Shown: piece after piece, positions 3 through 37,864 of the stretch
Layout of the letters: each line of letters opens with the position of its first letter
Position numbering within the stretch: position 1 is the first letter of the stretch
NCBI GenBank assembly: GCA_026713835.1
Contig: JAPONP010000203.1
Span: 1-37,948, forward strand
Direction: 5' to 3'
Length of the DNA: 37,948 nucleotides
Source: Bacteriovoracales bacterium
GTDB lineage: Bacteria > Bdellovibrionota > Bacteriovoracia > Bacteriovoracales > Bacteriovoracaceae
Position numbers and translations under genes: made by a program
The notes under the pieces: generated by a model
The model's input: the letters and a program-made list of their open reading frames with translations, nothing else
What the model was told of the DNA's origin: nothing
Database searches by the model: none

Positions 3-704
3 TCAGGGCCGATTTTAGCCTTTCTTTGTAACTGCTCACCCCCCGGCAATCTTGGCAGTCGACTGCCTCGTCGCTTCCTTGCGACATGCAGGAAGCACGC
101 CTCAGTCGCTCCTCGTTGCCTCCTACCAATCTTATCCGGGTGGAGAACAGTTACCTTGCCTTTATTACAGTTTTTGCCAGAGGTGCGAGCAGTTACCTTT
201 CTTTTGAGCCTATTCGTTTTTTTAGCAAGTTGCGGCCATTTTTCGACCAATCAAATAGCACGAAACACCTTTATTCTTAAAGATGGCTATTTTCACGGAA
301 AATTTGTCAAAACCCGGCTTCCGTTTGAGCAGATGAGTTGGTTTAAAGAGGCCACGTTGATCTATGATCTTAGAATGGGGGCCCTTTCCAAAGATTCTCC
401 CTACTTTCTTTGGCTTTCCTCCAAATCTCAAGAAGATGTGAGAAAATGTCCGTATTTTTATGTCGCCCTTTTGTACTCACAATCTTCTCGCTATATCGCA
501 CATGGGCTCGTTCGCAATCAGTTTGAGATTCAAAAGGCTTCCTGGCAAAGCCTTTCCGATTTTGAGCGTTCACTACGGATGCATCCTCAATTTAAGGAAG
601 AATCATTGCAAAAACACCATGTCAGGGGGGTTTGTTTTCAGTCGGCCCCTAGGGGCACCCTGATCAGTTTACCGGGCTACCCTTCCCAAACAATACTGGA
701 CTGA
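3..704 (+). CDS. Putative lipoprotein, signal peptide split by an in-frame mobile element (5' end open)
   Basis: I do not recognise the mature protein (about 155 residues, no known motif). The signal peptide is clear: a hydrophobic run ends in the lipobox LASC, so the protein should be lipid-anchored. The frame is open from base 3 to the stop at 702-704, so the native start probably lies left of the window. Removing the element at 28-196 and one 8-bp duplication restores a continuous h-region, SGPILAFLLSLFVFLASC. The insertion is therefore inside the signal-peptide coding sequence and adds 59 codons in frame without a stop. Translation could also restart in the element, at TTG 156 or GTG 183; the latter gives MRAVTFLLSLFVFLASC, a plausible lipoprotein signal. 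The kinase gene follows 93 nt downstream. The boundary of the real protein is uncertain. Confidence 0.6.
   Translation, partial: SGPILAFLCNCSPPGNLGSRLPRRFLATCRKHASVAPRCLLPILSGWRTVTLPLLQFLPEVRAVTFLLSLFVFLASCGHFSTNQIARNTFILKDGYFHGKFVKTRLPFEQMSWFKEATLIYDLRMGALSKDSPYFLWLSSKSQEDVRKCPYFYVALLYSQSSRYIAHGLVRNQFEIQKASWQSLSDFERSLRMHPQFKEESLQKHHVRGVCFQSAPRGTLISLPGYPSQTILD
28..196 (+). mobile_element. IS66-type MITE, full copy A (169 bp)
   Basis: The ends are perfect 10-bp inverted repeats (GTAACTGCTC at 28-37, GAGCAGTTAC at 187-196), extending imperfectly to about 23 bp. It is flanked by an exact 8-bp direct repeat CTTTCTTT (20-27 and 197-204). GTAA termini plus an 8-bp target duplication are typical of the IS66 family, and no transposase is present, so it is non-autonomous. 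Internal structure: a 14-bp perfect palindrome at 54-67 (GGCAGTCGACTGCC), and a 60-bp segment at 68-127 absent from copy B. That segment holds a hairpin (arms 73-82 and 88-96, one bulge). Element plus duplication is 177 bp, or 59 codons, and the frame is open throughout. Confidence 0.85.
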
Positions 705-2689: not shown

Positions 2690-2714
2690 TTTTGCTAGAG
2701 GTGCGAGCAGTTAC
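2690..2714 (+). mobile_element. Right-end remnant of the MITE
   Basis: These 25 bp match the right end of copy B exactly (TTTTGCTAGAGGTGCGAGC, then AGTTAC). The left part is absent. A short direct repeat ACCTAT (2685-2690 and 2713-2718) brackets it, perhaps a deletion scar. It fills most of the 45-bp gap between the convergent kinase and ppsR genes and abuts the ppsR stop codon. Confidence 0.8.
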
Positions 2715-29976: not shown

Positions 29977-30960
29977 ATGGGTTTTAAAAGGACACGCCAA
30001 CTCAAAAATCTCTCCCTCGTTTTCCTCTTCGTCGCCTCCTGCTCGGAAGGTATTGGGGATAGGGGTAAAATCATAAGCGCTCAAGAGGAGTTGACGGGAG
30101 GAAATTGTGAGAATGCCGTCCGCATATTGGAAGGCATCGCCGATGGATCGAGAGAGGCCAGATGGTATCAAACCATGGCCTCGGCCGAGGCCTGTTCCGG
30201 CTCCTTTCAAGAACCGAATTTTTTCACCTCCGGCATCAAGGATCTCAACGTGGCCAATCTTGGGCGTTTTTTGCCCGCGATCTCTTCGAGTTCCAACATG
30301 ACGGCACAAGATGATGTGGATTACACCTCTTTGCTCCAGGCCATCAGGACGTTAAAAAACGCAGGCCACACGGATTCCAGCGACGCCGGTTTTACCCTCG
30401 ATCGCCACAGTGAGATTTGGGGGGCCCAAAAGAGTGTGGATATGATTCTTCAGGCGACCTATATGACCGTGGCGGCCTTGGGAATGTATATGAGGTATTA
30501 CGGCAATGGGGATGCCACCGGGGCCAAAGGGGGGGGGAGTGGGAGCAATACTTGCTACTTGGATTACACGGACACCGTGTCCTTGGCGGGCCTGGCCGTC
30601 ACCCCTTCCGTCGCTTCTCCCTGCGTGGGAGGGGGATCGGGGCATTCGGATTTGACCCCGGATTTCGGTACCCTCTCGGGGGAGACTTTGAGGAGGGCCT
30701 GCGAGGGAGTGACCCTTTTCAATATGCTCTTTGCCTTCACGGCCTTTGTGGTCACTCCCGATGATTCCGGAGAGTTGAGTCGGGTGGATGAGACCCTTCA
30801 GGTACGTATCGATGCCTGTAAGGCCCTCGTGGGCACGACGGCCGAGGCCATTTGCTCCACACTCTCTCAAGACCAATGCGAAAGCATTGGGCAAAATAAT
30901 GCGACGGATTTAGAGCGTTATTTTGCCAGCACTTTTGAGCCCTTTCATAGGGGGAATTAG
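29977..30960 (+). CDS. Putative lipoprotein of unknown function
   Basis: I do not recognise the family. 327 residues with a lipoprotein signal peptide: basic n-region (MGFKRTRQLKN), hydrophobic LSLVFLFVA and the lipobox VASC, so the mature protein starts at a lipidated Cys22. The N-terminal mature part (EELTGGNCENAVRILEGIAD, then REARWYQTMASAEACSG) looks like a helical, TPR-like pair. The middle is Gly/Ser-rich and there are about ten cysteines, suggesting disulfides. The next gene, an outer-membrane barrel, starts one base after its stop, so the two probably form an envelope unit. A TATACT lies 8 bp before the ATG; no clear ribosome site. Confidence 0.75.
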   Translation: MGFKRTRQLKNLSLVFLFVASCSEGIGDRGKIISAQEELTGGNCENAVRILEGIADGSREARWYQTMASAEACSGSFQEPNFFTSGIKDLNVANLGRFLPAISSSSNMTAQDDVDYTSLLQAIRTLKNAGHTDSSDAGFTLDRHSEIWGAQKSVDMILQATYMTVAALGMYMRYYGNGDATGAKGGGSGSNTCYLDYTDTVSLAGLAVTPSVASPCVGGGSGHSDLTPDFGTLSGETLRRACEGVTLFNMLFAFTAFVVTPDDSGELSRVDETLQVRIDACKALVGTTAEAICSTLSQDQCESIGQNNATDLERYFASTFEPFHRGN

Positions 30961-30961
30961 G

Positions 30962-32170
30962 GTGAGATGTAACTGCTCACCCCCCGGCAATCTTGGCAGT
31001 CGACTGCCAATCTTATCCGGGTGGAGAACAGTTACCTTGCCTTTATTACAGTTTTTGCTAGAGGTGCGAGCAGTTACGGTGAGATGGGCCCTTCTCTTTT
31101 TCTTTTGCCTAGGGAGCGCAAGTGCCGGGAATAGTGAGTTTCGCTATCTTCATCGCTCGAGCAAAGGACTTATGATGGGAGATGCCTACACCACGTTGGC
31201 CTTGGACTCATCGGCCCTTTTTTATAACCCGGCCTTGGCCGCAAGAAATGATCTTGCGGCCATCTATCCTCTTCCCATGGATATGGGTCTTTTTCATCTT
31301 TTGGATGAAAAAGATCGTTTTGACAATGCGGACACCAATGAAGTTTCCGATTTCGTCGATGCGATCATTGGACTTCCCATTCACTTTCGAGCGGGTCTCG
31401 TTCCCACCATTAAATTTGGGGGCTTCACCTTCTCGTCTTTTGCCGTGGCCGATACTCACTTAATCGTTCGGGATAGGATTCATCCCGTGGGAGATTTTTA
31501 CTACAGGTACGACCGGGGATTTGCCCTTGGCTTTGGGTGGATGCCCTTTGGTTCCTCCAGAAGCGGGGGCCCTAGTTTGGCCCTCGGCGCTTCTTTAAAA
31601 TATATCCATCGGGATGCGATCATCAATCAGTACGATATCTTTAGCAAGACGTTTGCCGATCTCATCAGCTCCGATTCCAGGGGACTGGATGGGATCAAAA
31701 ATTCCTTGGGATTGACGAAGGGAAAGGGTTGGGGGGCCGACTTGGGAGTGGATTGGCGTTACAAATGGGGGCCTTCCACTTTGGCCTTGGGGTTTTCGGC
31801 CATGGATGTCTTGGATACGAAAATCAAAACCTACCGGGGATCGGGGCCTATGCCCGATCAACCCATGGCCTTGAGCTTCGGGTCGAGCTTTTCTCAAGTG
31901 TTGAATTCCTTGGCCGATTGGACCGTTTCATTTGATCTCCATCCCCTGGGGGAGAGGATCAAGCTCAAAGAAAAGGCCCATTTGGGATTTCAAATGGGGA
32001 TTCCCTTGGTGGATTTTTTTGTGGGATATAATAATGATTGTCGTAGCTATGGGGTGGCCTTTGATCTTTTTCCCTTTGAGTTTGCGGTGGGGGTCTATGA
32101 AAGGATGTTTGGAAGGGATAAGAAAAGGAGCTTGACGGCCCATTTTAGTCTTTTTGACACTTCTTTTTAG
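30962..32170 (+). CDS. Outer-membrane beta-barrel protein with in-frame MITE insertion at its N-terminus
   Basis: Probable outer-membrane protein of the PorV/TraF-like barrel type: SSKGLMMGDAYTTLALDSSA, FYNPALAARNDLAAIYP, many alternating beta strands and a C-terminal Phe. The native GTG at 30962 has AGGGGG just upstream and the codons GTG AGA T. The MITE then adds 39 codons in frame (beginning CNCSPPGNLGSRLP), after which the duplicated target restores GTG AGA TGG (31079) and the hydrophobic core ALLFFFCLGSASAG. The product is thus either 402 residues with a long n-region, or about 363-368 residues from an internal start (GTG 31064 or 31079). Which start works is unknown. Confidence 0.75.
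   Translation: MRCNCSPPGNLGSRLPILSGWRTVTLPLLQFLLEVRAVTVRWALLFFFCLGSASAGNSEFRYLHRSSKGLMMGDAYTTLALDSSALFYNPALAARNDLAAIYPLPMDMGLFHLLDEKDRFDNADTNEVSDFVDAIIGLPIHFRAGLVPTIKFGGFTFSSFAVADTHLIVRDRIHPVGDFYYRYDRGFALGFGWMPFGSSRSGGPSLALGASLKYIHRDAIINQYDIFSKTFADLISSDSRGLDGIKNSLGLTKGKGWGADLGVDWRYKWGPSTLALGFSAMDVLDTKIKTYRGSGPMPDQPMALSFGSSFSQVLNSLADWTVSFDLHPLGERIKLKEKAHLGFQMGIPLVDFFVGYNNDCRSYGVAFDLFPFEFAVGVYERMFGRDKKRSLTAHFSLFDTSF
30969..31077 (+). mobile_element. IS66-type MITE, full copy B (109 bp)
   Basis: Same 10-bp perfect inverted ends as copy A (30969-30978 and 31068-31077). It is flanked by an exact 8-bp duplication GGTGAGAT (30961-30968 and 31078-31085; the next base also matches). The palindrome GGCAGTCGACTGCC is at 30995-31008. 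It lacks the 60-bp inner segment of copy A; otherwise the two are nearly identical, differing at one base near the right end (CTAGAG against CCAGAG). Element plus duplication is 117 bp, or 39 codons, inserted in the same codon phase as copy A. Confidence 0.88.
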
Positions 32171-35939: not shown

Positions 35940-36986
35940 TCATTGCTCAAATCGGCAGCATCGTCCCGTGACCTCTCCAACCGCCGCGCGGATCTCTGTG
36001 ATAGGTCTCCAAACCTCACCTTCCTCGCAATAGGCGTTCCCTGTCCCGGCGTCGGATGCCACATTTTTTGTTTGAACCTCACCGCAGAGGAGTCCTAGGG
36101 TCCCGTCGTAGATATCTCCAATTTGTAGCTTTGAATGATTATTATTATTGCTGACGACTCTAAGGTCTAAAGGAATGCTTAAAATCTCTTTCGTGCAATT
36201 GTTATTGGCATTGCAATCGAGTCCCGGACGGTCTATAAGATTGGTAAATTTCCAAACGGAGATTTTCATCTCGGCCGATCCCCTTTCAAACTCAATATTT
36301 CTTGGAGGATTGGGTGTATCAACGACCTCCATGCTGAAACTGTGGTAGGGCTCAAAATCTTCCACCCACATCGTTCGGATATAGACTTGTCCATTCTCAT
36401 CGAGAGAGCGAATACTGCCACCTTGGGGAGGGCCGATCAGGGTGACATTGCTTCCGGAAGGTGTTCCGGATATTAGGACGCTTGTATCGAGGAGGGAGGG
36501 GGTATTGCGGCAGTTATTGCTATTGGGAGCGCAGGGTTTATTGTCGGGGTTTTGGCCGGGGGTAGTGCCGGGGAGGGAAAGGACGATCCTTTTAATGGCG
36601 CAGGGATCCGCTACGATCGGATTCCTGGGATCCGGATTCCCTACGACCGCATTGCTATCCCGGTTGGTTGTGGCGCAGGTAACTCCGTTGTTGTAGCCTA
36701 CGAGTTGGGCCCTTTGGGTTCTATCGGTACTGGTAGGATCGGTAACGCCAAAGGACTTTTCGATGGTTTCCCTATGGCGAAGCCATTTTTTGATGATAGA
36801 GCGTTGGGTACCGGCGGTTTCCGAGGCCAATGTTCTATTGGTGGCGATTTGGGAGTTTTTTTGCCTTTTCAAATCCATGAGGAGAAAGCCCGAGGTAAGA
36901 CCCATGGCGAGCATCATCTCAAGGATACTAAGCCCGAAGGACTCAAGTTTTAAGGGGGGGGATTTTTTTATTGGACAAATCGACAA
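35940..36986 (-). CDS. Prepilin-like protein, tandem paralogue 2
   Basis: Type IV pilin-like (minor pilin or pseudopilin). The prepilin peptidase site and N-methylated helix are seen in ESFG|LSILEMMLAMGLTSGF, with Glu at position 5. The mature part is about 330 residues and closely parallels the preceding gene (SGTPSGSNVTLIGPP, RSLDENGQVYIRTMWVEDF, ERGSAEMKISVWKFTN, GRCCRF at the end). There is no ATG near the site. The best start is TTG at 36986, 7 nt after GGAGG, inside the end of the upstream gene, giving the leader MSICPIKKSPPLKLESFG; GTG at 36989 is the alternative. The leader crosses runs of seven A and eight C (36954-36968), so frame shifts are possible. The frame extends upstream to 37058. 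Confidence 0.75.
   Translation of the reverse strand: MSICPIKKSPPLKLESFGLSILEMMLAMGLTSGFLLMDLKRQKNSQIATNRTLASETAGTQRSIIKKWLRHRETIEKSFGVTDPTSTDRTQRAQLVGYNNGVTCATTNRDSNAVVGNPDPRNPIVADPCAIKRIVLSLPGTTPGQNPDNKPCAPNSNNCRNTPSLLDTSVLISGTPSGSNVTLIGPPQGGSIRSLDENGQVYIRTMWVEDFEPYHSFSMEVVDTPNPPRNIEFERGSAEMKISVWKFTNLIDRPGLDCNANNNCTKEILSIPLDLRVVSNNNNHSKLQIGDIYDGTLGLLCGEVQTKNVASDAGTGNAYCEEGEVWRPITEIRAAVGEVTGRCCRFEQ
36430..36480 (-). repeat. Near-identical block shared by the tandem prepilin genes
   Basis: 51 bases here match 37479-37529 at 49 positions (by hand), coding SGTPSGSNVTLIGPP. The flanks are much less alike, so this block may have been homogenised by gene conversion. Confidence 0.7.
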
Positions 36987-37864
36987 CACCGTCCCTCCAA
37001 TCTTCCAACGCTTGAATTTGCTCCTGTCGCCGTATTGATCGTTCTTTCCGTATTCCAAAACTCATTGGGGTCCTCGCATAACTGCTCATGAATTTCCTTT
37101 ATATCTCGTTCCCCGCATTGGAGTCCAAATGAGCCGTCTTGAATATGACCCGCCTCAATCGCCGGCGCCAGCGTTCCCCGCTGAGGAATACTTTTGATTC
37201 TTTTTAAATTCAAAGGAAGGGTGATGGTCTCCTTGATGCAGTTATTAGAGCAGTCGAGTTGTGCATTGTCGATGCGGTTGGTGAATTTCCAAATGATAAT
37301 CTTCATATCGGCAGACCCTCGTTCCAACTCAAGTGTGGAGCCGGTGCTTTGATCTTGAAGCCGGAGACTATCCTCATCGCGGCGAAAATTTTCGATCCAC
37401 ATGGCCCTGATATAGGTCCAGCCCGATTGATCCAGGGAGCGAATGAGGTTTCCTTGGGGAGGGGGAGGGCCGACGGGAGGGCCGATCAGGGTGACATTGC
37501 TTCCGGAGGGTGTTCCGGATCTTAGGACGACCTCACCGTTGGGAAGGGCAATTCTTCTGATGGCGCAGGCATCCGCTATGTTCGTAGTGCTATCCCGGTT
37601 GGTTGTGGCGCAAGTGGGATCGGAGCCCACGATTTTAATTCTAGTGGGCGAATCCATACCAAAGGAGTTTTTGATGGCCTCATCTTGGCGAAGCCAATCC
37701 CTTAAGGTGTTTCTAAGACCTGAGACGGACTCTTGGGACACCTTTCTCTTTGAAGTGATTTCGACGTTTTTTTGTCTTTGCAAATCCATGATGACAAGTC
37801 CAGAACTTAGACCTATGCCGATCATGATTTCCAAGAGGCTGATACCCGAAGATTGGAGTCTCAT
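36968..37864 (-). CDS. Prepilin-like protein, tandem paralogue 1
   Basis: Type IV pilin-like protein of 298 residues with the very short leader MRLQSSG followed by the cleavage site and helix G|ISLLEIMIGIGLSSGLVI (Glu at position 5). The rest is a predicted globular, Cys-containing domain (TCATTNRDS, ADACAIRRIALP, NNCIKET, FGLQCGE, GRCCRF) with a proline-rich loop (GPPVGPPPPQG) absent from the paralogue. Probably a minor pilin or pseudopilin of a type IV pilus or type II secretion machine. The ATG at 37864 has AAGGAAAG 5 nt before it. It is followed directly by its paralogue, so the pair is a tandem duplication. Further pilus genes may lie beyond the right edge. Confidence 0.8.
   Translation of the reverse strand: MRLQSSGISLLEIMIGIGLSSGLVIMDLQRQKNVEITSKRKVSQESVSGLRNTLRDWLRQDEAIKNSFGMDSPTRIKIVGSDPTCATTNRDSTTNIADACAIRRIALPNGEVVLRSGTPSGSNVTLIGPPVGPPPPQGNLIRSLDQSGWTYIRAMWIENFRRDEDSLRLQDQSTGSTLELERGSADMKIIIWKFTNRIDNAQLDCSNNCIKETITLPLNLKRIKSIPQRGTLAPAIEAGHIQDGSFGLQCGERDIKEIHEQLCEDPNEFWNTERTINTATGANSSVGRLEGRCCRFVQ
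37479..37529 (-). repeat. Second copy of the prepilin block
   Basis: Partner of 36430-36480, 49 of 51 bases identical. Just beyond it, this copy has an extra G-rich stretch coding the proline loop. Confidence 0.7.

Follow-up and report, generated by a model that had tools for sequence, protein, structure and literature searches.

A mini-transposon at the start codon of a barrel-type gene and its in-frame relatives in a Bacteriovoracales genome

The duplicated start of the barrel gene

In the window (the whole 37,948-nucleotide stretch of contig JAPONP010000203.1 that was analysed), a gene for a lipoprotein-like protein is followed by a gene for an outer-membrane barrel-type protein, and a short element, copy B, lies at their junction (Table 1). 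No Pfam family was matched by the upstream protein. The barrel protein scored E 3.4e-5 against NCBIfam NF033709, which is under that family's curated cut-off.

Table 1. Features of the junction and other copies of the element in the window
Feature	Position	Strand	Remarks
Copy A, 169-bp form	28..196	+	duplication CTTTCTTT at 20-27 and 197-204
Solitary element right end TTTTGCTAGAGGTGCGAGCAGTTAC, without left end	2690..2714	+	25 bp, exact
Upstream gene, 327-aa lipoprotein-like protein	29977..30960	+	FVASC lipobox-like motif; TAG one base before GTG1
Native Shine-Dalgarno-like AGGGGG	30949..30954	+	7 nt 5' of GTG1; direct reading
Target duplication GGTGAGAT, left	30961..30968	+	contains GTG1, 30962-30964
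Extended frame, GTG1 through copy B into barrel gene	30962..32170	+	ORF; 402 aa (+39 residues)
Copy B, MITE, GTAACTGCTC...GAGCAGTTAC	30969..31077	+	109 bp; frame +2 open
Left terminal inverted repeat GTAACTGCTC	30969..30978	+	sequence
Candidate internal start: GGAG, 10 nt, TTG 31037-31039	31023..31039	+	in frame; direct reading
Candidate element-borne ribosome site AGAGGTG, 31060-31066	31060..31081	+	12 nt 5' of GTG2; direct reading
Right terminal inverted repeat GAGCAGTTAC	31068..31077	+	sequence
Target duplication GGTGAGAT, right	31078..31085	+	contains GTG2, 31079-31081
Outer-membrane barrel-type gene, 363 aa from GTG2	31079..32170	+	signal peptide MRWALLFFFCLGSASA; weak PorV/PorQ-family similarity

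Copy B has terminal inverted repeats of 10 bp each, and its two GGTGAGAT flanks are a perfect 8-bp match. This match also argues for correct joining of the flanks by the assembler. The duplication is also beyond chance, since the element recurs at 28-196 in the window and about 100 times in the genome.

The upstream stop codon (TAG, 30958-30960) is followed by a single G and then by GTG1. A sequence-only reading of this stretch had proposed that the target held the GTG start of the barrel gene one base past that stop, that the native AGGGGG and GTG were kept on the left, and that a second GTG AGA TGG was restored on the right; all of this is borne out, the second copy standing at 31079. The region given for it, 30961-31086, runs one base too far, as the duplication stops at 31085. 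The two GTG codons are 117 nt apart, which makes 39 codons in the same frame without a stop, as had also been claimed. This is the length of copy B plus one duplication; being a multiple of three, with frame +2 of the element free of stops, it can be passed by translation. The further claim that the gene was neither disrupted nor simply cut off from its ribosome site is consistent with the sequence, and so is the proposal that its product may be longer at the N-terminus or be initiated within the element. Folded alone, copy B forms a hairpin of -41 kcal/mol (z = -3.64).

As for the native start, barrel orthologues were found in other genera of the same family at 30-40% identity. Of 19 same-family relatives, 18 carry an orthologue of the upstream gene (27-32% identity) directly 5' of their barrel gene; in most of the 19 the barrel start either overlaps the upstream stop or is no more than about a dozen bases away (ATGA, TAATG). 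When aligned with 15 orthologues, the window GTG sits in a shared start column, followed by the signal peptide and then by a shared motif around RSPxALLMGDAYT. The frame is intact across 363 codons, with invariant residues conserved. An orthologue starting elsewhere had been named as a finding that would speak against the earlier reading, and the sister-genus orthologues instead share both the column and the stop-start junction. On this comparison with sister genera, the element's target was very probably the original start of a gene translationally coupled to its upstream neighbour. This start, as given by the orthologues, joins the anatomy, the duplication, the frame and the recurrence of the element among the parts of the case that are shown. 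A scan of a set of genome contigs with the barrel protein found no relative, and one with ThrRS placed the organism no more closely than near Bacteriovoracaceae.

The element family and similar known elements

Genome-wide there are about 100 copies, most with 8-bp duplications, in length classes of 169, 116, 89 and 109 bp. The draft assembly breaks at many copies, and many of the 169-bp form are split by contig ends. Among copies with both flanks, 57 of 68 have an identical 8-bp duplication, a count in which 24 copies were paired across contigs by duplication identity and thus give no independent support for the duplication; nearly all of these 24 also overlap in element sequence. The contig-internal copies, scored independently (n=40), include 31 with an identical 8-bp duplication and 4 with one mismatch. 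Target duplications are A+T-rich, GGTGAGAT having more G+C than most.

The 169-bp and 109-bp forms, together with their duplication, are 3n long, and either orientation offers a frame without stops. Open frames are exactly +2 and -0 in 42 of the 43 copies of 169 bp and in both copies of 109 bp; the one remaining 169-bp copy has an additional second forward frame open. Both 109-bp copies correspond to the 116-bp form minus 7 nt. The L099 copy has one base in common with a 116-bp copy, a hint that the 109-bp form may have originated twice independently. C215, which also matches the 109-bp junction, turned out to be a rearranged copy and was rejected as a third 109-bp element. None of the twelve 116-bp copies lies inside a gene, except near a 3' end.

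Some further observations concern the family as a whole. A second 169-bp subfamily (L034, L024, L060, L095, L096) is about 29% different and carries compensating shifts; it is still 169 bp long, and frames +2 and -0 are still open. In about sixteen copies (e.g. L060, L083, L095, L100) the duplication coincides with a native stop codon or lies no more than a few codons from one, and the GTAAC element ends supply an immediate TAA in one phase. The solitary right end in the window adjoins the 3' end of a kinase gene and is a remnant or a partial copy. The full element is absent from all others among 129 same-family genomes, where a few short matches to its middle were found.

In terms of class, the element has the features of a MITE: it is 89-169 bp long, occurs in about 100 copies, and has 10-bp terminal repeats and an 8-bp target duplication but no transposase gene. 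The GTAA terminus and the 8-bp duplication are common to the element and the IS66 family, and three IS66 elements of same-family genomes likewise have GTAA ends and 8-bp duplications. Mobilisation of IS66 type is therefore likely, going by these ends. The element differs from IS66 in having no transposase, and beyond GTAA its repeat is unlike those of the three same-family IS66. The search of its own genome for IS66 returned only decayed or contig-end-cut fragments with no matching repeat nearby, and a full IS66 with a matching inverted repeat was found neither there nor among the three same-family elements.

The best-known examples of mini-transposons that code in frame come from Rickettsia and Wolbachia. 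The RPE are palindromic repeats of about 105-150 bp, present in many copies with a stop-free frame; they and similar Wolbachia elements occur as in-frame fusions within protein genes of the host, where gene function is tolerated (PMC2229807, PMC10969869). The RPE target duplication is listed as unknown, and the cases described lie in metabolic and other conserved genes (PMC2229807). The element shares with RPE its short palindromic form, high copy number, stop-free frame and in-frame position in host genes. It differs in host phylum, in its clear 8-bp duplication and GTAA ends, and in that its intragenic cases are mostly in signal peptides, with one or two on a start codon. By analogy the element is one that works like RPE, a separate element likened by way of working and not by sequence.

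The enterobacterial RU-1 and RU-2 (ERIC, YPAL) are likewise mini-elements whose open frames have been joined to those of the host. These supply hydrophobic signal-peptide sequence and have been proposed to create new proteins; in Yersinia, part of a predicted signal peptide comes from RU-2. In contrast, the element described here sits ahead of the hydrophobic region in a signal peptide that already existed; it preserves the frame and has an 8-bp duplication.

Insertions inside genes

Empty sites were reconstructed by joining the flanks of each copy by script. Reading frames were then rated by a codon score whose training set was the long ORFs of the window. The census was blind to phase and counted an insertion if it lay inside a gene, leaving out the last 12 codons. 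It returned 11 intragenic insertions, 10 of which have a stop-free frame through the element, against an expectation of 0.22 per insertion (67% of copies are 3n long, and one of the three phases is usable). With length class and phase taken together the binomial p is about 3e-6, and with phase alone 1.3e-4; both values treat the insertions as independent and depend on heuristic gene calls based on ORF length and codon score. In-frame insertion in genes is thus above chance, and with the strictest coding score tried all insertions keep the frame (9/9). The single out-of-frame case, L179, has 74 aa and a weak score, and may not be a gene. Start positions are ambiguous for some gene calls (L067, L072); L067 was scored in frame, although its real start may fall downstream of the insertion. 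The conclusion that the barrel gene was left readable extends in this way to about ten other copies in other genes of the genome.

Most in-frame insertions lie among the opening codons of genes whose products begin with a signal-peptide-like sequence. Besides copy B, the census holds L066 (subtilase), L072, L102, L174|L069 (trypsin-like), L099 and L101, the last two in reverse orientation; L088 and L145|L058 lie outside it. L058, L088 and L102 were first spotted in a phase-biased listing: L058 and L088 stand outside the census, and L102 enters it at lower thresholds only. Within their first 35 residues, 9 of 9 N-terminal targets have a 10-residue stretch that reaches 2.0 or more on the Kyte-Doolittle scale, a hydrophobicity of signal-peptide strength, compared with 7 of 23 window genes. 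L089 resembles another signal-peptide fusion; its left flank was not identified.

L145|L058 probably represents another duplicated start codon. Its flanks, GATGCAAG and GATGCTAG, were joined across contigs with one duplication mismatch and both hold the ATG start, which lies two bases past the upstream stop; the extension is 59 codons.

Two in-frame insertions are mid-gene, so that whole products require read-through. One gives a 59-residue in-frame insertion in the middle-domain region of a Mur ligase (Mpl-like, L140|L125), which is single copy in the genome. The other, L034, lies between the CtaA and UbiA matches of a protein with COX15/CtaA and UbiA domains in one frame.

Probable translation through the element

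We consider it probable that copy B is read through from the native ribosome site and GTG1, producing the same exported protein with an n-region 39 residues longer. A non-autonomous MITE with IS66-type ends would have landed at the start codon of a barrel gene of PorV/FadL-like type, its 8-bp duplication leaving one start codon on either side. Initiation at the native site and GTG1 would then lead ribosomes through copy B into the barrel gene. The predicted precursor has 402 residues, with the basic n-region of its signal peptide extended by 39; net charge is +4 across the 43 residues preceding the hydrophobic core. Signal peptidase would remove the extension, leaving the mature protein unchanged, and read-through from GTG1 would give peptides from CNCSPPGNLGSRLPILSGWR. 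Both GTG2, with the AGAGGTG of the element, and the in-frame TTG inside it may serve as second starts. The survival of the insertion would match the other intragenic copies, almost all frame-keeping and most often in signal peptides, and the feature common to in-frame cases would be that translation from the native start can traverse the element. We infer translation through the element, export and cleavage, and selection over insertion preference. The 39-residue n-region contains a weak hydrophobic stretch, VTLPLLQFLL, which could impair export, and the strong RNA fold of the element could lower translation.

It is also conceivable, though rather unlikely, that the start has shifted to the right, with GTG2 used together with AGAGGTG, perhaps by ribosomes arriving from the upstream gene; the protein would be unchanged and the open frame a matter of chance. 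GTG2 and the complete native signal peptide do stand intact to the right, preceded by AGAGGTG at 31060-31066, and a start is duplicated here and probably in L145|L058. However, the 12-nt spacing between AGAGGTG and GTG2 is longer than usual, and most other signal-peptide cases have no native start remaining at the right and nevertheless keep the frame. The start might instead come from the element, at TTG 31037 (GGAG 10 nt upstream) or GTG 31064, providing a short new n-region and a portable start for secreted proteins. The same TTG (-41) and GTG (-14) are in frame in the forward signal-peptide cases, but this reading is improbable, as it misfits the reverse-orientation (L099, L101) and mid-gene insertions. 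It is weakly opposed by the signal-peptide cases all being 3n forms (169 or 109 bp), although the 116- and 89-bp copies share the same right end.

Silencing or decay of the gene, in which the element hairpin would block translation of the second gene of the coupled pair and the frame would be open by coincidence, would draw on the stability of the fold of the element alone and on its position, now parting a tightly coupled stop-start pair. The intact 363-codon barrel frame with its conserved invariant residues argues against this, and 10 of 11 in-frame insertions are left unexplained by one coincidence, which makes it very improbable.

Returning to read-through from GTG1, we tentatively extend it to the family: n-regions may be a safe harbour, translated and then discarded with the mature protein unaffected, and the 109-bp copies could be frame-restoring deletions that arose after insertion. 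Both 109-bp copies are placed in frame within signal-peptide genes, which would agree either with a frame restored once the element had inserted or with a small subfamily. If they are frame-restoring deletions, read-through would be shown to be under selection.

Compared with the open-licence literature, this bdellovibrio-like lineage seems to provide an independent case, one that bears a clean signature of transposition. It would allow one to ask whether selection keeps such elements readable and at which places proteins tolerate them. Their bias towards signal peptides offers a simple, testable reason for element survival, and the start-codon case is a natural experiment on which start is chosen when two genes are translationally coupled.

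Lastly, direct repeats of 45-55 bp at 36426-37615 of the window are common to two adjacent minus-strand genes (35940-37058 and 36968-37864) and probably represent a local duplication.
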